DNA of 64,000 bases from Bdellovibrionales bacterium CG12_big_fil_rev_8_21_14_0_65_38_15 (GCA_002787775.1 PCUW01000050.1:1-64000); one strand, 5' to 3'; shown: positions 46,741-64,000, numbered from the stretch's first letter. Numbers and translations: made by a program. Notes: generated by a model not told the origin, from the letters alone.

Positions 46741-46882
46741 AAAGTATTGAGTTGCAACACGTTAAAAAACTTAGACAAGTATCTAAAATTCCTGATGTCA
46801 TTATACGGACAATCTGTTATTTTTTGCCTAAATTACGATTCAAAATTTGTTACAAACCTTCAACCAGGTTTTTGGTACTGCC

Positions 46883-48211
46883 ATGATCCACAAAATTAAA
46901 AAGGGTCTTGATCTGCCCATCTTAGGTCATCCGAAACAAGCCATCGAAAAAGGACGTGCGGTTAAAACTGTTGCACTCTTAGGTCCTGATTACGTTGGTA
47001 TGAAACCATCTATGCTCGTTAAAGAAGGTGACAAAGTAAAACTTGGTCAACCTGTCTTTGAGTGTAAAAAAGTTCCTGGAGTTATTTATACTGCTCCTGC
47101 ATCTGGAACTGTTAAGGCCATTACTAGAGGAGAAAAACGTGTTTTTCAAAATCTAGTGATTGAAATTGACGGTGATGGAATGGATCAAGTTTCTTTTACA
47201 AAATCAAAAGATGATGTTGAAGGACTTTTAATCGAGTCAGGTCTTTGGACTTCAATTAGAACACGTCCATTTTCAAAATCGGCTACACCTGGCACAAAAC
47301 CTCATTCAATTTTTATTACAGCGATTGATACAAATCCGCTTGCTGCTTATCCAGAAGTCGTTATTAAAGATAATGCTGAAGCTTTCTCTCTAGGGATTAA
47401 AAAGCTTTCAACACTAACTGATGGAAAAACATTTGTTTGTGTTCGCGGTGGAAGTCATATTGAAGTTCCAAGCGAAGGTAATATTGAAAAACAAGAATTC
47501 TCTGGTGTTCACCCTGCTGGAAACGTAGGTACACATATTCACTTTTTAGATCCAGTCGGTGCTAAGAAAGTTGTTTGGCACGTTGGTTATCAAGACGTTA
47601 TTGCCATTGGTAAGCTTTTTACTGACTCGAAACTAAATGTTGATAGAGTTGTTTCAATCAGTGGTCCAATGGCGACTCAACCTCGTCTTGTTAAAACTCG
47701 TCTTGGTGCTTGTCTTTGTGACCTATTAGAAGGCGAAGTGAAGTCAGGCGACGTTCGTCGTGTTTCAGGTTCAGTCTTTAACGGTCGTGTTGCTGCTAAC
47801 AACCCATTTTGTTATCTTGGAAAGTTTCATCAACAAGTCACTCTTCTTGAGGAAGGCCGTCACCGCGAATTCTTCGGTTGGCATTCTCCAGGTTTTGATA
47901 AATTTTCAATTAAGAGCGTTTTTGTTTCAAAACTATTCCCAAATAAGAAATTTGCCTTCGATACAAATACGAACGGATCTCCAAGAGCGATCGTTCCTGT
48001 CGGTAGTTACGAAAAAGTTATGCCTTTAGATATTTTGCCAACACAACTTCTACGTTTGTTGATGGCAAAAGATACTGATGGAGCTCAAGAGCTTGGAGCT
48101 TTGGAGCTAGACGAAGAAGATTTAGCACTATGTACTTATGCCGATCCGGGAAAAACGGATTTTGGACCAGTGCTTAGAGAAAGTCTCAATATTATTGAGA
48201 AGGAAGGGTAA
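46883..48211 (+). CDS. nqrA: Na+-translocating NADH:quinone reductase subunit A
   Basis: NqrA is the peripheral cytoplasmic subunit near the quinone site. Start ATG 46883 gives the family N-terminus [19 protein letters not shown]; a longer in-frame start at 46847 is unsupported. The 442 residues include [46 protein letters not shown], and [19 protein letters not shown]. The stop TAA shares its last base with the nqrB start, so translation is coupled. It is first of six nqr genes. Confidence 0.97.
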
Positions 48212-49422
48212 TGAAAGCGCTAAGAACATTTCTTGATGGACAACATCATCATTTTGTTAACGGTGGAAAACTAGAGAAGCTTTATCCTCTATACGAAGCC
48301 ATCGATACTTTTATCTATTCTCCAGACTCAGTGACTGAAGGTAGAACACATTTAAGAGATGGACTTGATCTTAAAAGATTAATGATCACAGTCGCCTTTG
48401 CTCTTATGCCAGCAATTATGTTCTCAATGTGGAACACTGGCTATCAAGCTAATTCAGCTCTGGCCCAGATGGGACTTGAGCAAGCCGTTGGATGGAGAGG
48501 AGAAGTTCTTGCCATGCTGGGGCTTGGTTTTAGTCCATCGAATATTTTAGCCTGCTTCATGCACGGTGCTCTTTATTTTGTTCCAATCTTTTTGGTAACG
48601 AATATCGCCGGTGGTATTTGCGAAGCAATTTTTTCTAGTGTTAGAAAGCATGAAATCAATGAAGGCTTTCTTGTAACAGGTCTTCTTTATCCATTAACAC
48701 TTCCTGCAACGATTCCTCTTTGGCAGGTTGCTGTTGGAATTATTTTTGGTGTTGTTATTGGTAAGGAAATTTTTGGTGGAACGGGTAAAAACTTTTTAAA
48801 CCCGGCTCTAACTGCTCGTGCCTTCTTGTATTTTGCTTATCCTGCTCAAATTTCAGGTGATGCAGTATGGGTTGCAGTTGATGGTTACACTTCAGCCACA
48901 GCACTAGGTGTTGCTGCTCAAGGTGGAATTTCTGCGGTCACGGCGCAGTTTAGCTTTATGGATGCATTCTTTGGAATGATTCCTGGCTCATTAGGTGAAA
49001 CTTCAACGATTGCAATATTACTCGGAGCCGTTTACCTTATTTCAAGTGGAATTGGTTCTTGGAGAATCATGCTTTCAGTTCTAATTGGAGCTGTTGGTTT
49101 TGGCTTTCTTCTTAATACAATTGGCTCAACCACAAATCCTATGTTCTCTGTTCCATGGTATTGGCATCTGGTGCTTGGAGGTTTCGCCTTCGGTACGGTT
49201 TTCATGGCAACGGATCCAGTGTCTGCTTCTATGACTCATAAAGGTCAATGGTTTTACGGTATCCTTATTGGCGTGATGACTATTCTTATTCGTGTCATCA
49301 ATCCAGCGTATCCTGAAGGGATTATGCTCGCCATTTTATTTGGTAACGTATTTGCTCCTTTAATTGATTGGTTTGTCACTCAAGGCAATATCAAACGTCG
49401 CCTAGCGCGCACTCAAGTTTAG
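48211..49422 (+). CDS. nqrB: Na+-translocating NADH:quinone reductase subunit B
   Basis: NqrB is the main membrane subunit with covalent FMN and part of the Na+ path. The 403 residues have about ten membrane helices. [22 protein letters not shown] and [18 protein letters not shown] are conserved. The flavinylation motif reads [11 protein letters not shown], close to Dxx(S/T)GAT but with Ser in place of Gly. The ribosome site is AAGGAAGGG at the end of nqrA. The next gene starts 12 bases downstream. Confidence 0.97.
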
Positions 49423-49434
49423 GCGGAGGACTAT

Positions 49435-50238
49435 ATGAATAACGATTCAGTTGCCAAAACATTTATTGTCGCCACACTTCTTTGTGCTGTTTGTGCCGTC
49501 CTCGTTGCCGGTTCAGCGGTTTCTTTAAGACCTATGCAAGAAGCCAATAAAGTTCTTGATGTTAAGAAAAATCTTTTAATGGCCGCCGGTCTTATTAAGG
49601 GAAATCCTAGCGCTAAAGATATTGAAGCCGCATTTGCCAATATCGAGACAAAGGTTATCAATATTGAAACAGGTGAAGAAGTTTCAGATATTGATCCAGA
49701 ATCTTATGATCAACGAGCAGCTTCAAAAGATCCAAAAATGTCAGTTTCTATTCCTTCTGGAAAAGATATTGCAAAAATTAAATCACGTGCAAAGTACGGA
49801 AAAATTTATTTTTACAAACCACAAGGCAATGTTGAAATGATTATCCTGCCAATTCATGGCAAGGGTCTTTGGTCGACTCTTTGGGGTTTCATGGCACTGT
49901 CTAGCGACGTTAATACTGTTAAAGGTATTGGCTTTTATGAGCACGGTGAAACTCCTGGTCTTGGTGGAGAAGTGGATAATCCAAGATGGAAGGCTCAATG
50001 GGCCGGCAAGAAAATTTATGATGAACAAGGTCACCCAGTTATTGATGTCGTTAAAGGTCAAGCCCCAGATGGAGCTGAACATAAAATTGACGGGCTCTCT
50101 GGAGCAACAATCACTTCAGGTGGTGTCGAAAACCTTGTTAATTATTGGTTCGGCGATAATGGTTATCAAAAATACCTAAATAGCTTTAAACAATCACAAA
50201 CTGAATCAACGAATGATTCAGTTTCAATGGCACAATAA
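49435..50238 (+). CDS. nqrC: Na+-translocating NADH:quinone reductase subunit C
   Basis: NqrC carries a covalently bound FMN on a periplasmic domain, attached by ApbE. The 267 residues have one N-terminal membrane helix ([19 protein letters not shown]), then [31 protein letters not shown] and the flavinylation motif [17 protein letters not shown], with Thr as acceptor. The preceding GGAGGA is a good ribosome site. Confidence 0.97.
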
Positions 50239-50249
50239 GGAGAGAGGGG

Positions 50250-50870
50250 ATGAGTATTAAAAAAACCCTTTTCGGACCAATGTTTGAAAATAACCCTATC
50301 GCACTTCAAATCTTAGGGATTTGTTCGGCTTTAGCAGTTACAACAAAAATGGAATCTGTAATGGTCATGGCGCTAGCGGTTACGCTAGTGACTGCTGTAT
50401 CAAATTTTTGTGTCTCTATTATCAGAAATCACGTCCCAAGTGCGATTCGTATTATTGTGATGATGACTGTTATTGCATCACTCGTGATTGTAACGGATCA
50501 GTTACTTAAAGCTTTTGTCTATGACATCGCCAAAAGTATGTCTGTTTATATCGGCCTAATTATTACAAACTGTATTGTGATGGGTAGAGCAGAAGCTTAT
50601 GCCATGAAAAATGGACCGATCATGAGCTTTCTTGACGGTCTTGGAAACGGAATTGGCTATTCATTAGTTTTAATCTTTGTTGGAGTTTTTAGAGAGCTTT
50701 TTGGATCAGGAAAACTTTTTGGTTTCTCAATCCTTCCTCTAACTAACGAAGGTGGCTGGTATCAAGGTAACGGTTTGATGCTTTTATCACCATCAGCTTT
50801 TTTTCTTATTGGATTCTTTATCTGGGGACTTCGCACTTGGAAAAAAGATCAAATTGAACAAAGTAATTAA
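50250..50870 (+). CDS. nqrD: Na+-translocating NADH:quinone reductase subunit D
   Basis: The 206-residue subunit has six membrane helices and pairs with NqrE in the ion-translocating core. [26 protein letters not shown] and [17 protein letters not shown] contain the conserved Cys that help hold the intramembrane 2Fe-2S site. [16 protein letters not shown] and [21 protein letters not shown] follow. GGAGAGAGGGG lies before the ATG. Confidence 0.97.
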
Positions 50871-50881
50871 GAGAGTTAAAT

Positions 50882-51493
50882 ATGTTACAACATCACCTTA
50901 GTATTTTAACAAACGCCGTTTTTATCGAAAATATGGCTTTATCTTTCTTCCTTGGAATGTGTACTTTTATTGCCGTTTCAAAGAAAGTTAAAACTGCCAT
51001 TGGCTTGGGTATTGCGGTTGTCGTGGTTCAAACCATTACCGTTCCAGCCAATAATCTTATTTATAATAATCTTCTTAAGGGTGGAGCTCTTGCTTGGGCC
51101 GGTATGCCAAATACTGACTTAACTTTTCTAGGTTTGATTTCATATATCGGTGTTATCGCCGCTATCGTTCAAATTCTTGAAATGACTCTTGATAAGTATG
51201 TGCCTTCACTATATGCGGCTTTGGGAATTTTCCTTCCCCTTATCACAGTGAATTGTGCCATTTTAGGTGGATCACTTTTCATGGTTGAGCGTGATTATAC
51301 TTTCGCAGAAAGTGTAACTTATGGCTTTGGTTCAGGTCTTGGTTGGGCAATTGCGATTATGGCACTTGCAGGTATTAGAGAGAAGATGAAGTATAGCGAT
51401 GTTCCTGAAGGACTACGTGGTTTAGGTATTACCTTTATCACCGTGGGACTGATGGCCTTAGGCTTTTTATCATTTTCAGGTATTCAACTTTAA
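50882..51493 (+). CDS. nqrE: Na+-translocating NADH:quinone reductase subunit E
   Basis: The 203-residue membrane subunit is homologous to NqrD in inverted topology. [30 protein letters not shown] and [20 protein letters not shown] carry the conserved Cys residues, and [38 protein letters not shown] is a family hallmark. GAGAG precedes the ATG, 11 bases after nqrD. Confidence 0.97.
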
Positions 51494-51515
51494 TTATTAG
51501 TTAATAGGATTCGGT

Positions 51516-52739
51516 ATGAACGAAATCATCCTTGGCGTCTCAATGTTTACCGCGGTCATCTTGGCCTTGGTCTGTATTATTCTCGTTGCGAAAAGCAAGT
51601 TAGTTTCAAGCGGAAATGTTGAGCTTGTTATTAATGGAGAAAAAACAGTGTCTGTCGCAGCTGGTGGCAAACTTTTAAATATTTTAGCTGATCAAAAGCT
51701 ATTTGTTTCTTCGGCCTGTGGTGGTGGTGGAACTTGCGGCCAGTGTAAAGTTCATATCCATTCTGGTGGTGGAGATATTCTTGAAACAGAAATGTCTCAT
51801 ATTACAAAAAGAGAAGCTAAAGAAGGCTGTCGTCTTTCATGTCAGGTTGCCGTTAAAAACGATATGAAGATCGAAGTTCCTGAAGAAGTTTTTGGTGTGA
51901 AGAAATGGGAATGTACTGTTCGCTCTAACCATAACGTTGCAACATTTATTAAAGAGCTCATTCTCGAGTTGCCACCAGGTGAAGCAGTTCCATTTAGAGC
52001 TGGTGGATTTATTCAAATTGAACGTCCAGGCGGTCTAACTTTTGATTATAAAGATTTTATTATTGAAGAAAAATTCCATGAAGATTGGGATAAATTCAAT
52101 ATCTGGCAGTACAAAAGCTATACTGAAGAAGATGTCATTAGAGCTTACTCAATGGCTAACTACCCAGAAGAGAAAGGGATCATTATGCTTAACGTGCGTA
52201 TTGCTTCTCCTCCTCCACGTCTTCCAAATGTTGCTCCAGGAAAAATGTCTTCATATATCTTTGGTTTAAAACCAGGTGATAAGACAACGATTTCAGGTCC
52301 ATTTGGTGAATTCTTTGCTCGCGATACTGATAAAGAGATGATCTTCGTTGGTGGTGGTGCTGGTATGGCGCCAATGCGTTCACATATTTTCGATCAACTT
52401 AAGCGTATTCATACAAAGAGAAAGATGACTTTCTGGTATGGTGCTAGATCTAAACGCGAAATGTTCTATGTTGAAGACTTTGATGGTCTTCAAGCTGAGA
52501 ACGATAACTTTAAATGGTATTGTGCTCTATCGGAACCTCAACCGGGTGATGACTGGAAGGGTGATACAGGCTTTATCCATAACGTACTTTATGAAAACTA
52601 TTTAAAAGATCATGAAGCTCCAGAAGATTGTGAATACTACCTCTGTGGTCCACCTATGATGAACCAAGCGGTTATTAATATGCTTCTGTCTCTAGGTGTA
52701 GAAAGAGACGATATCATGTTGGATGACTTCGGCGGCTAA
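51516..52739 (+). CDS. nqrF: Na+-translocating NADH:quinone reductase subunit F
   Basis: NqrF accepts NADH electrons through FAD and a 2Fe-2S cluster. The 407 residues show an N-terminal membrane helix (~3-24), the ferredoxin domain [16 protein letters not shown] with a fourth Cys in CRLSCQV, the FAD motif [10 protein letters not shown], the NADH-binding [17 protein letters not shown] and the C-terminal [13 protein letters not shown] and [10 protein letters not shown]. It closes the nqrABCDEF operon at a terminator. Confidence 0.98.
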
Positions 52740-52747
52740 CTGACGCG

Positions 52748-52774
52748 AGCCATGAATAATTTCATGGCTTTTTT
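52748..52774 (+). terminator. rho-independent terminator of the nqr operon
   Basis: Perfect stem AGCCATGAA (52748-52756) / TTCATGGCT (52761-52769) with a 4-base loop and a T-run to 52774, 8 bases after the nqrF stop. Confidence 0.9.
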
Positions 52775-52786
52775 AAAAGGAATAAA

Positions 52787-53809
52787 ATGCTAAAAATTCT
52801 TTCACTTTTAGCTCTATTACTTTCTTGTACTAAAACAGATGTTCCTGATCAGTTGTCCCTATTTGGTAAAACCATGGGGACAACATTTTCTATAAAATAT
52901 TATCCAGCAAAAGAAACTCCAGCCAGTGAAGAGCTTTTGAGATTGGTTAATGAGAAACTCATTTCTATTAATATGGAGATGTCGACCTATATCGATCAAA
53001 GTGAAATTCAAAAATTTAACAAGCAAAAAACCTTAGATAGTTGGTTTAAAGTTTCTCCAGGATTCCATTGGGTGACGAAACTTGCTGTCGCTTTAGCTGA
53101 AAAGACCGATGGAATTTATGACCCAACGGTTGGTCCTTTAGTGGACCTATGGGGATTTGGAAAAAATAAAACGAAAACTATTCCATCAGCTCAAGAGATT
53201 GAAAGAGCCAAGCAGATGGTTGGATACAAAAAAATAATTATTCACGATACAGAAGCCATGATTCGAAAAACCCAAGCCGACGTCAGATTAGATTTATCAT
53301 CAATCGCTAAAGGTTGGGGAGTTGATGAAGTTGGACGTGTTCTTGAGATTCATGGAATTGAAAGTTATATGGTCGAGATTGGTGGTGAAATTAGGGCCAA
53401 GGGATTAAAGGCCGACAAGACTCAGTGGCAACTAGGAATAACATCACCGGACTCAAAAGGTTTTGATTCGGTGCAAAAGATTGTGCTTCTTAAGGATGCT
53501 GCTCTTGCCACCTCTGGTGATTATCGAAACTTCTATGAGATTGATGGAAAACGATATTCCCACGTTATAGACCCTAGAACTGGTTCACCAGCACTCAGCA
53601 CGATTGCAAGTGTCTCTGTGATCGAAAAAAGTGGAGATTGCACACAGGCCGATGGGCTAGCGACCGCGCTTTTAGCAATGGGACTTGAGGGAGCGCAAAA
53701 ATTTGCCCTAGATAATCAATTACCTGTGTTTATTGTCTATCATAGCGGTGAGGAAGAATATTCAGAGTGGATGACACCTGAATTTTCTGGGTATATTAAA
53801 AAGAAATGA
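52787..53809 (+). CDS. apbE: FAD:protein FMN transferase ApbE (lipoprotein)
   Basis: ApbE attaches FMN to Thr in NqrB and NqrC. The 340-residue lipoprotein has signal LSLLALLLSCTKTD (lipobox Cys). GKTMGTTFSIKYYPA, YDPTVGPLVDLWGFGK, the Mg/FAD site RLDLSSIAKGWGVDEVGRVLE, GGEIRAKG, and HVIDPRTGSPA are the ApbE signatures. It lies just past the nqr terminator and overlaps nqrM by 4 bases; together they form the maturation unit of NQR. Confidence 0.96.
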   Translation: MLKILSLLALLLSCTKTDVPDQLSLFGKTMGTTFSIKYYPAKETPASEELLRLVNEKLISINMEMSTYIDQSEIQKFNKQKTLDSWFKVSPGFHWVTKLAVALAEKTDGIYDPTVGPLVDLWGFGKNKTKTIPSAQEIERAKQMVGYKKIIIHDTEAMIRKTQADVRLDLSSIAKGWGVDEVGRVLEIHGIESYMVEIGGEIRAKGLKADKTQWQLGITSPDSKGFDSVQKIVLLKDAALATSGDYRNFYEIDGKRYSHVIDPRTGSPALSTIASVSVIEKSGDCTQADGLATALLAMGLEGAQKFALDNQLPVFIVYHSGEEEYSEWMTPEFSGYIKKK

Positions 53810-60832: not shown

Positions 60833-60922
60833 TGGTGCCCGAGACGAGACTTGAACTCGTACGGAATGATTAATTCCGAGGGATTTTAAATCCCTTGTGT
60901 CTACCGATTTCACCACCCGGGC
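60833..60922 (-). tRNA. tRNA-Leu (anticodon UAA)
   Basis: Read on the reverse strand from 60922 to 60833, the acceptor stem GCCCGGG pairs with CTCGGGC followed by ACCA, so CCA is encoded. The D arm has TGAAATCGGTAGACA. The anticodon arm is AGGGA-TTTAAAA-TCCCT with anticodon TAA. A long variable arm CGGAATTAATCATTCCG is the class II mark of Leu, and the T arm has GTTCAAGTC. The full length of 90 bases is right for tRNA-Leu. Confidence 0.97.
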
Positions 60923-60931
60923 AGGAAGATG

Positions 60932-60960
60932 ATTCAAGGATGAACGTGATTTTCGACCAA
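60932..60960 (-). promoter_or_regulatory. candidate tRNA-Leu promoter
   Basis: Reverse strand: TTGGTC (60960-60955), 17 bases, TTGAAT (60937-60932), ten bases before the tRNA 5' end. It overlaps the first codons of the divergent lipoprotein gene. Confidence 0.4.
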
Positions 60961-62511
60961 ACTCGTAGTTTCTGTCAATTAACCTTAGCAATATTTTTTT
61001 TATGCTACGGCTGTAGTTCTAATAATATTGTAGAAAATAAGCCGTTAGAAATTAAAGCTGTTTATAACGAGCTGCAACCTAATACTGTAGAAGCTAAGCC
61101 TGATGGCACTGTTGGGCCTCACTTGTTTTTTGACCCTGCGCCATTTGCTCATCCAGAAGATAAATCAGTCAATGTTATTATTTTAACTCCTGCAGCGTCG
61201 CTGCACGGCTACGGACTAGATACTCGATCAGGTTCGCTCTATCGTCAGCGCTTTTATTGTGAGCATAAAGATATCTGGAATAATTATAATGACGAGTTAT
61301 CAACACCTCCATTTTCCATAGCTGTAGTTCCAAGAACACTAGACGCTTTAGGTGAACCGCAACAAACATTTGTTTTTGGTAATTCTAAATATCTAGACCA
61401 ACCTAGTAGTGAAACACTTACTCATCGAGTTCGAATCGTTGGAGGGGTGATTAGGCAAGTCTGTAGAGATTACCCATGTGCAACCACAGAAAGGTGGTTA
61501 TCAAATATGCAGTTGATTGCAGTCAATTCACAAGATCCTAAGTTTAAAGATGTTCAAGATTTAGCTTCTTTAAAATCAAAAGTTGATTGGGAAGAATCTC
61601 TTGCTTGGATGCAAAATGGATTCGGCGTTACTTTAGCAGGTACAAGACCTGAGCCTGTTTATAGAGTGACAGGTGAAGTCGATGCAAATAGAGCTCTTTC
61701 TTATTTTTTAAAAAAGAACCGAGAAATAAATTTTGAAGAACAAAAAAGTATTTCCAAAAGTTGTAATATTCTCTATGAAGATCTTTGGCAAGGCTCTCAA
61801 AGAGTTAGAAAAGCTATAGCAAAAAGAAAGGAAATGCTTACGAGTGGAAAAGCAGGAACAGAAGAACTCTTAGTTGAGTACTCTGATCTTGAACGATTAA
61901 ACCTCACAAAAGAACAACGTCAAGCGGATGCCATTAATAAGAAATTTGAAGTAAAGAAGAGTCGTAGTGAATATGACTTTGCTAAATTCTTTGGAAATTT
62001 CCATGAAAATTACGGCAAAAGATACAAAACTTGTATGCGTTTTGTAAGGCCTGCTAGCATTGCTAAAGATGAGGAACGATTTTGGTTTTTTGCCTTTGTT
62101 GATTTATTCATGGGACTTGAAGACTTGGGTTGGTCATATCGATGTTCTAGAAGAGCATGGTTGGAAAATCCTAAGAAATCTGATGGCACAAGACTTTTTA
62201 CTAATTCTTTTGAAAAAAGTTGTACCGTTAATGAGCTTGATTTAGCTTTTGATATGGCCGTTACGGTCATGAGTGGTGAAAGAAATGCCAAGCGTCCTCA
62301 CATGAGATTTATTGGATATGATTCTGGCGCCAATGGTAGCCATGAAAAAATTTATGGTTGGGTTCATGAAGATGGCAAAGAACTTGTTTGTACAGATGAA
62401 GAACAAGCAAAATTTCTAGAAAAAGATCGTACCGTTATTTTTCCAAGTGATGTGAGTTGGAAAAGTTTTAGAGTCGAAGAAAAAAGGTCGAGATATGACA
62501 TTATCAGATGA
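60940..62511 (+). CDS. lipoprotein of unknown function overlapping nuoB
   Basis: The start at ATG 60940 gives a lipoprotein signal (QLTLAIFFLCYGCSSNN, Cys25). AGGAAG lies 11 bases upstream, and longer frames would run into the tRNA. The 523 residues contain a ~270-residue mixed domain with several Cys, a Lys/Glu-rich helical middle (~290-360), and a C-terminal part with WSYRCSRRAW. No family is recognised. The last 17 bases overlap the nuoB start, so the protein is coupled to the complex I-like genes. It may be an assembly or anchoring factor, but nothing in the sequence proves it. Confidence 0.75.
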   Translation: MNVIFDQTRSFCQLTLAIFFLCYGCSSNNIVENKPLEIKAVYNELQPNTVEAKPDGTVGPHLFFDPAPFAHPEDKSVNVIILTPAASLHGYGLDTRSGSLYRQRFYCEHKDIWNNYNDELSTPPFSIAVVPRTLDALGEPQQTFVFGNSKYLDQPSSETLTHRVRIVGGVIRQVCRDYPCATTERWLSNMQLIAVNSQDPKFKDVQDLASLKSKVDWEESLAWMQNGFGVTLAGTRPEPVYRVTGEVDANRALSYFLKKNREINFEEQKSISKSCNILYEDLWQGSQRVRKAIAKRKEMLTSGKAGTEELLVEYSDLERLNLTKEQRQADAINKKFEVKKSRSEYDFAKFFGNFHENYGKRYKTCMRFVRPASIAKDEERFWFFAFVDLFMGLEDLGWSYRCSRRAWLENPKKSDGTRLFTNSFEKSCTVNELDLAFDMAVTVMSGERNAKRPHMRFIGYDSGANGSHEKIYGWVHEDGKELVCTDEEQAKFLEKDRTVIFPSDVSWKSFRVEEKRSRYDIIR

Positions 62512-63013
62512 TCTTTTAGATCGTTTAGTACTTACAACTTCAAGTCACTCTTTTTTAAATTGGCTTGAAGTAAAATCGAGAGACACATCACCTTGGGTCT
62601 TTCCCTTTGGATTATCATGCTGTTCTCTAGAACATGCAGCAGCTTTTCATACGTCTGTTCTTATCTCTGACAACCAATCCAGTCCTCAAAGAGTTAGACC
62701 TGAAGAAGCTGATTTGATGATTTTTGGTGGCTCGGTGACAACTAAACTCTTGCCTATCCTAAGTGAAATTCATGGACGATTAAAAGAGCCAAAATGGGTT
62801 ATGAGTATTGGCGCTTGTGCTGCAAGTGGTGGACTCTATGCTGAAGGTTACTCCGTTCTTCCTGGAATGAGCCAACATTTCCCCATTGATGTTTATGTTC
62901 CAGGTTGTCCGCCCGGACCTGAGCAATTAGTAGAAGGCTTTAGTATTATAAGACAAAGAATGAAGAAAAATATTAGTAGTTGGTTATTAGATCAAGAAAG
63001 AGCTCAATTGTGA
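62495..63013 (+). CDS. nuoB: NuoB-like subunit of a complex I-related enzyme
   Basis: NuoB holds iron-sulfur cluster N2 next to the quinone site. The 172 residues keep its four ligands: FGLSCCSLEHAA (Cys-Cys), GACAASGG and VPGCPPGPEQLVEG, with ADLMIFGGSVTTKLLP and PKWVMSIGA between. Unlike classical operons, no nuoA lies upstream; an unknown lipoprotein gene overlaps its start instead. The start ATG 62495 is within that gene. The stop TGA overlaps the GTG start of nuoCD. Confidence 0.9.
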   Translation: MTLSDDLLDRLVLTTSSHSFLNWLEVKSRDTSPWVFPFGLSCCSLEHAAAFHTSVLISDNQSSPQRVRPEEADLMIFGGSVTTKLLPILSEIHGRLKEPKWVMSIGACAASGGLYAEGYSVLPGMSQHFPIDVYVPGCPPGPEQLVEGFSIIRQRMKKNISSWLLDQERAQL

Positions 63014-64000
63014 AAATCCTTGATTCTTTAAATAAGAATTTTCCAACGTTAGACTTTAAAGAGTCATCTGGTTTGTTACATGTAAACCTGGATAATATAA
63101 TTGTTTATGATGTCGTTAAATTATTAAAAAAAGACTTTGGATTTATTTTTCTCCTTGATATTTTTGCCACCGACCATTTGAATGACTATTCAAGTGGAAA
63201 GTGTGAAAAACGATTTACCGTGACTTATCACTTGCTGCACCTCGAAGAACATAAACGTATCTCTGTTAATGTTGATCTAAATGAGCACGAAACGATTCAG
63301 AGTTTCTCAGAGTTATGGCTTAATTCTAAGTGGCCTGAGCGAGAAATTGCTGAAATGTTTGGAATAAATTTTGAAAATCATCAAACTTCTAAATTATTAA
63401 CGTCTGATTATATAATTGGCTATCCACTTCGAAAAGACTGGGTCTATCAAGCTAAAAGTCATCAAGATTTAGTTTTTAAAAAACCAGAATTTTCATGGCT
63501 TCCAGAGATTGGTGATGATGAAAGATTGTGCCGACAAGTTATCGATCTAAGTCCTTCTCATCCTGCTATTCAAGGTACATTTGTTGTTCGGGCCGAAGTC
63601 TTAGGTAATAAGGTTAAGCGAGCTTTAGTAGAAATTGGATTACAGCATAGAGGTGTGGAGAAAATTTCAGAATCAAAACACTACGGACAGTTTATTCCTT
63701 ACGCTGAAAGATTAAATTTTTCTTCTCCAATGATGGGCGCTATTGCTTGGGCAAAAACTGTTGAAGAGGCTATTGAAATTGAAATGACTGATCGCTGCCA
63801 AGCACTTCGAATGATAATGATGGAATTATCTCGAGTTTTAGATCATTCCACCAGTCTTGCGGCCATGGCGCAAGATCTTAGAGCTTGGGATGCCTCGGTC
63901 ATTTTTCAACGAATTAGAAGTCATGTAAGTGCTTTATTTTTGTCATATACTGGTTCGAGACTAATGGGATCTTCTGTACGTATAGGTGGAATGGTTCATG
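63010..64000 (+). CDS. nuoCD: fused NuoC-NuoD-like subunit, partial
   Basis: It begins at GTG 63010 in a GTGA overlap with nuoB and stays open to the window edge (330 residues seen). Residues ~1-150 are NuoC: SKWPEREIAEMFGINFENHQ and GYPLRKDW. The rest is NuoD: DLSPSHPAIQGTF, VEIGLQHRGVEK, HYGQFIPYAERLNF, MMELSRVLDHS, TGSRLMGSSVRIGG. Two quinone-binding residues of Thermus Nqo4, His38 and Tyr87, align with Gln (codon 63571-63573) and Phe (codon 63718-63720). C/D fusions are known in other bacteria. Confidence 0.9.
   Translation, partial: MKILDSLNKNFPTLDFKESSGLLHVNLDNIIVYDVVKLLKKDFGFIFLLDIFATDHLNDYSSGKCEKRFTVTYHLLHLEEHKRISVNVDLNEHETIQSFSELWLNSKWPEREIAEMFGINFENHQTSKLLTSDYIIGYPLRKDWVYQAKSHQDLVFKKPEFSWLPEIGDDERLCRQVIDLSPSHPAIQGTFVVRAEVLGNKVKRALVEIGLQHRGVEKISESKHYGQFIPYAERLNFSSPMMGAIAWAKTVEEAIEIEMTDRCQALRMIMMELSRVLDHSTSLAAMAQDLRAWDASVIFQRIRSHVSALFLSYTGSRLMGSSVRIGGMVH

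Follow-up and report, generated by a model that had tools for sequence, protein, structure and literature searches.

A second complex I-like soluble arm, encoded behind a lipoprotein gene and without its own membrane arm, in a relative of Halobacteriovorax

The window, by which we mean the whole 64,000 nt stretch analysed here (Bdellovibrionales bacterium CG12_big_fil_rev_8_21_14_0_65_38_15, PCUW01000050.1:1-64000), ends within an operon that continues on contig C52 and belongs to a genus in the family of Halobacteriovorax. The left boundary of the locus is a divergent tRNA-Leu(UAA) gene detected by ARAGORN (60833..60922, minus strand). The first gene of the operon, on the plus strand, encodes a lipoprotein of no known family (60940..62511, the start codon being a guess in an ORF that opens at 60895), and is overlapped by an intact frame for a NuoB-like protein of 172 aa, here NuoB' (62495..63013, plus strand; NCBIfam nuoB, 1e-38). 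This is followed by an intact frame for NuoCD' (567 aa, plus strand; nuoC 8e-23, nuoD 4e-103), of which 62980..64000 lies in the window and which ends at 64683 on C52. Beyond the window edge stand NuoE' (133 aa, 64680-65081), NuoF' (369 aa, 65084-66193), NuoG' (434 aa, 66187-67491) and NuoI' (144 aa, 67488-67922), each of the genes from NuoE' to NuoI' touching or overlapping the next, and an aat-like gene on the opposite strand bounds the operon 3' of NuoI'. The gene order is thus lipoprotein-B'-CD'-E'-F'-G'-I', a whole soluble arm. Both Pfam and NCBIfam recognise the operon genes as the hydrophilic subunits of complex I, E', F' and G' scoring weakly. An initial reading made from the sequence alone had remarked that nuoA is not upstream of NuoB' and that a lipoprotein ORF stands in its place; this holds, and between the right edge and the end of NuoI' there is likewise neither nuoA nor any other gene for a complex I membrane subunit.

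The same sequence-only reading had proposed that the quinone site is altered, and alignment with the NuoD of E. coli, with the other NuoD of the genome itself and with 80 relatives bears this out. The quinone head group is bound by His38 and Tyr87 (Thermus Nqo4 numbering), which also supply its protons (PMC5938582). At the first of these positions NuoCD' has Gln198 (63571..63573, plus strand), SHPAIQG aligning with HPATHG, and at the second it has Phe247, ERLNF aligning with DRLDY (Asn246-Phe247, 63715..63720, plus strand). The accompanying change of Asp86 to Asn is present as described, but it is not unusual, DRLNY being found also in intact 14-subunit operons of the phylum (L050, L053), and being common to intact complex I of the phylum it is uninformative. 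The four Cys ligands of cluster N2 are kept in NuoB' in the order CC...C...C, as had been noted, namely C42-C43 (62618..62623), C108 (62816..62818) and C138 (62906..62908), all on the plus strand.

The large subunits of energy-converting hydrogenases and of Ehr complexes are related to NuoD, and in these systems the catalytic ligands can be lost while membrane subunits are kept. A hydrogenase reading of the window was nevertheless rejected: the best NCBIfam and PDB matches of NuoD' are complex I NuoD/FpoD, formate hydrogenlyase and membrane-bound hydrogenase rank far below these, NuoCD' thus matching group-4 hydrogenases far less well than complex I, and the translated NuoD' part shows no paired CxxC nickel ligands.

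The site of electron entry is also changed. In NuoF', the sole NuoF found by a search of the genome, the glycine-rich FMN motif GRGGAGFPTG is replaced by YGRSLES and the NADH motif NADExEPGT by NLASVEPGM. The two motifs are lacking in both members of the window genus, which is represented by two members with NuoCD' only ~66% identical between them; the FMN/NADH motifs are present in NuoF of relatives in genus g4 and g29. All the Cys ligands of clusters N1a, N1b, N2, N4, N5, N6a, N6b and N7, and three of the four of N3, align in both window-genus members. Because the FMN/NADH motifs are lost, the Fe-S cysteines kept and the quinone ligands gone, the window copy is a wire with neither known terminal.

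Elsewhere the genome encodes an ordinary 11-subunit complex I, with nuoB, C, D and I on contig C7 and nuoA, H, J, K, L, M and N on contig C58. The NuoD on C7 has a normal quinone site (HPATHG and RLDY), and the C58 membrane subunits are of the conserved type that is found with BCDI throughout the family. C58 carries the genome's single NuoH and all three of its antiporter subunits, and searches with NuoH and antiporter subunits found no second membrane arm in the assembly, which is 92.7% complete. Since the only NuoH lies on C58 with the BCDI-linked cluster, the window operon constitutes a second soluble arm without its own membrane arm. One of the two possibilities raised at the outset, that of a diverged paralogue, is borne out by the presence of this canonical 11-subunit set with normal residues and by the separate clade formed by the window genes. 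A full NQR nearby had also been reported correctly: a six-gene NQR set with an ApbE-like gene, as read from ORFs, occupies 46847-53809. The NQR and the 11-subunit complex I amount to two NADH- or quinone-linked energy converters in the cell.

The lipoprotein has the lipobox LCYGC and nine invariant Cys, the lipidated one included. It has no Pfam family at E<=0.001, no NCBIfam match and no PDB relative, a match to 1qez (E 0.02) being discarded as at chance level, and an AlphaFold model built from two sequences has a mean pLDDT of 34. We surveyed 129 genomes of the family, the only one sampled in its class, and found the gene in 109 of them, with two weak matches in the 240 genomes that represent the rest of the phylum. 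Wherever a fetched locus holds both genes (86/86), the lipoprotein and NuoCD' genes are adjacent on the same strand, NuoB' usually lying between them and the median gaps being 7 and -7 nt. On its left side the locus is flanked by the divergent tRNA-Leu(UAA), in the window and in each of the 16 relatives' loci that were scanned, and on its right side, in 79 loci, by a convergent arginase-like gene. One group of the family has a gene for a desaturase-like membrane protein downstream of NuoI' and co-oriented with it (L188 4345-5523 and 17 other loci). The hexamer TGTCAA (codons TGT CAA) is identical in 68/68 loci whose lipoprotein has a Cys-Gln pair; its candidacy as a regulatory element of the lipoprotein gene was dropped in favour of a -35 box of the tRNA-Leu gene, given that its reverse complement, TTGACA, is situated ~51 nt upstream of the divergent tRNA-Leu. 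Within the window the start of the lipoprotein gene overlaps the apparent promoter of that tRNA gene (60833-60979). The lipoprotein gene of the sister genome G113 lies in two frames separated by one TAG (L046 12436-14064), either by mutation or by assembly error.

Across the family the operon forms a graded series, for which residues were counted in 80 operon NuoCD' sequences (11 from operons with canonical EFG and 69 others) and N2 and NuoI cofactor ligands in 79 rows. His38, Tyr87 and N2 are retained by every one of the 11 operons with canonical EFG, and their genomes have at least two NuoH; the two genomes examined, G004 and G070, carry a second A-H-J-K-L-M-N set directly after the C58-type set, as does G065 a second such set, this genome having been analysed without its NuoCD row and standing outside the tree. 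Outside this group none of the 69 operons retains both His38 and Tyr87. G057 has lost EFG and His38, with a divergent second membrane set still present; this arm (L261 16493-19901) is strongly diverged, its NuoL-like protein being 28% identical to that of E. coli, as if in the middle of loss. The window genus follows, in which the second membrane set is missing, the FMN site is broken and Gln replaces His38, and then Halobacteriovorax and others, with B'-CD'-I' only and Lys at position 38. The N2 cysteines are absent in 37/79 rows, corresponding to ~8 changes on the tree, and the NuoI Cys motifs in 22/79 (~4 changes). Among the decaying parts in relatives is also the HPxxHG loop of NuoD', which belongs to the quinone cavity. 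A few loci hold the lipoprotein and CD' only, and at four (L207, L213, L215 and L222) the lipoprotein gene stands alone at the same place, so that some lineages can do without the Nuo' proteins. Two genomes that are each 99% complete, G026 and G028, keep the lipoprotein and CD', and in neither was a NuoH or an antiporter subunit detected. G026, for which contamination is estimated at 9%, has two lipoprotein-CD'-I' clusters (L210, L211) and no detectable complex I membrane subunit.

In a tree of NuoCD sequences all 80 members of the operon fall into a single clade (SH-aLRT 100). It adjoins a clade (92) of Bdellovibrionales with B-CD-E-F-G-I clusters, and the two, together with L058 and then the phylum's 14-subunit operons, constitute the Bdellovibrionota portion of the tree. 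The tree is the product of a quick search and contains several long branches, such that placements inside the fast clade are unsure. Bdellovibrionales possess a separate membrane operon, whose NuoH is similar to the one in the second set of G004 or to those of the 14-subunit operons. Because these neighbours have B-CD-E-F-G-I together with a separate membrane operon, the comparison supports an ancestral complex I divided between two operons, one of which survives in the window lineage.

The Nuo' genes are under purifying selection, cofactor-less copies included, with dN/dS of 0.06-0.20 where dS is measurable. By the Nei-Gojobori method, applied to the closest cofactor-less pairs given that dS is saturated in many others, dN/dS is 0.18 for NuoB' and 0.20 for NuoI' in the pair L188/L189, and 0.06 for NuoCD' and 0.09 for NuoI' in the pair L196/L199. 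In redox-complete members the conservation of the Nuo' proteins exceeds that of the lipoprotein; several cofactor-less pairs show equal conservation or the opposite order.

We consider it likely that the operon encodes an orphaned soluble arm which has lost its membrane half and has been kept for a role tied to the operon's lipoprotein rather than for energy conversion. The starting point is a complex I with its soluble half (B-CD-E-F-G-I) and its membrane half (A-H-J-K-L-M-N) in two operons, the latter of which was lost in the window lineage. With the FMN/NADH motifs gone, the usual oxidation of NADH is no longer possible in the arm, and neither is the usual reduction of quinone, given the loss of His38 and Tyr87 and the lack of an own NuoH. 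The analysis shows the gene order, the loss of these sites and of the membrane arm, the ancestry and the purifying selection, whereas the complex described next, where it resides, its tie to the lipoprotein and its non-redox role are inferred. The arm would then have been retained through an acquired role connected with the lipoprotein encoded first in the operon. The proteins might form a small cytoplasmic complex, B'-CD'-I' (with E'F'G' in addition in the window), probably held on the inner membrane by the hydrophobic N-terminal helix of NuoI' and acting as a scaffold or regulator of the lipoprotein's process, not as an energy converter.

Several considerations lead to this view. Docking on a membrane arm is not the general role, because G026 and G028 keep the operon without NuoH or antiporter subunits, and electron transfer is not the general role, because ligands have been lost in many lineages. 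The lipoprotein and the NuoCD' fold persist, and we therefore propose a protein module serving the process in which the lipoprotein takes part. The link between the lipoprotein and the Nuo' proteins is suggested by gene order. A lipoprotein faces the periplasm or the outer membrane, whereas the Nuo' proteins should be cytoplasmic, and with the two in different compartments a direct contact is not obvious. More tentatively, and as somewhat short of probable, we suggest that throughout the family NuoB, NuoCD and NuoI have been exapted as a non-redox module for a lipoprotein-dependent process in Bdellovibrio-like bacteria, the membrane arm having been lost first and the flavin, quinone and Fe-S sites afterwards, independently in several lineages and under purifying selection.

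The alternative that survives best, although we regard it as unlikely, is that the operon is still a soluble redox enzyme in which a new donor and a new acceptor are joined by the Fe-S wire of complex I. It draws on the retention of eight complete sets of cluster ligands and three of the four N3 Cys in two members as divergent as those of the window genus, where the conservation of all aligned Fe-S ligands but one fits continued electron transfer and speaks against repurposing; in this genus the Fe-S chain may still serve in redox chemistry or sensing. Pfam, however, finds no new donor domain in E', F' or G', and most relatives are without E'F'G', many of these having then lost N2 or the NuoI clusters and yet kept the operon. 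The other possibility raised by the sequence-only reading, that of a relative of complex I which passes its electrons to a different acceptor, is unsupported as a general account: the entry motifs of NuoF' are gone and there is no own membrane arm, and relatives that lose N2 and the NuoI clusters still keep the genes.

That the Nuo' genes are decaying remnants beside a useful lipoprotein gene, heading for loss, appears quite improbable. Such an account would be in keeping with the series found at one locus, from lipoprotein+B-CD-E-F-G-I through lipoprotein+B-CD-I and lipoprotein+CD to the lipoprotein alone, and with the long branches in the fast clade, but the frames of the Nuo' genes are open in tens of genera, the low dN/dS extends to cofactor-less copies where dS can be measured, and CD' is retained after loss of N2 and the NuoI clusters. 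It is very improbable that the arm docks on the single C58 membrane arm as an alternative to BCDI, switching its mode. The genome does have one membrane arm for two soluble quinone modules, but the C58 arm already has its own BCDI module, the operon occurs in G026 and G028, in which NuoH and antiporter subunits are undetected, and the loop of NuoD' that forms part of the quinone cavity decays in relatives. An ordinary complex I whose operon is split, its membrane genes lying elsewhere, as is true of G004, G070 and Bdellovibrionales, is next to impossible, an own membrane arm having been ruled out by the NuoH and antiporter searches (one NuoH only) unless a second arm lies in the 7% of the genome that is missing, in which case the loss of the FMN site and both quinone ligands would still oppose it.

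The orphaned arm that we favour may be set beside known systems. Like the peripheral arm of respiratory complex I, it comprises all hydrophilic subunits in the same order, with the Fe-S ligands kept in the window, but it differs in having no membrane arm of its own, no FMN/NADH motifs and no quinone ligands, and in the lipoprotein gene at its head. Another counterpart is the split complex I of Bdellovibrionales (L058, L059, L060, L067), which shares the soluble B-CD-E-F-G-I operon without membrane genes and falls in the neighbouring NuoCD clade; that enzyme, in contrast, has a canonical F, His38, Tyr87 and a separate membrane operon, and its operon is not preceded by a lipoprotein gene. The genome's other set, on C7 and C58, resembles the Desulfitobacterium system (PMC11238625) in consisting of B, C, D, I, A, H and J-N without EFG, whereas the window operon is the reverse, with EFG-like genes present and membrane genes absent.

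All parts of the operon are recognisable as complex I subunits, and a non-redox role, if shown, would be a clear exaptation of a respiratory enzyme. The hydrophilic arm of complex I is usually viewed as existing to feed the proton pump. Here the living lineages of a single family range from the complete enzyme to a relic without cofactors on which selection still acts, and this graded series allows a test of which parts of the arm serve beyond electron transfer. The lipoprotein, almost absent outside this bacterial family, likely points to a lineage-specific function. There is also a warning for annotation: the name NADH dehydrogenase, which these genes will receive, cannot be correct for them in many of the genomes. 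Our search of the literature on Bacteriovorax/Halobacteriovorax complex I, membrane-less arms and cofactor loss, in which subscription papers were partly covered, found no description of the operon.

A further variation in the electron input part of complex I was encountered in Deltaproteobacteria bacterium RBG_16_54_11 (L066 5249-9784). In its complete-looking nuo operon the place of nuoE/nuoF is taken by proteins of 410 aa and 244 aa, the former matching the C-terminal part of NuoF only and the latter matchless, which perhaps represent another electron input module.
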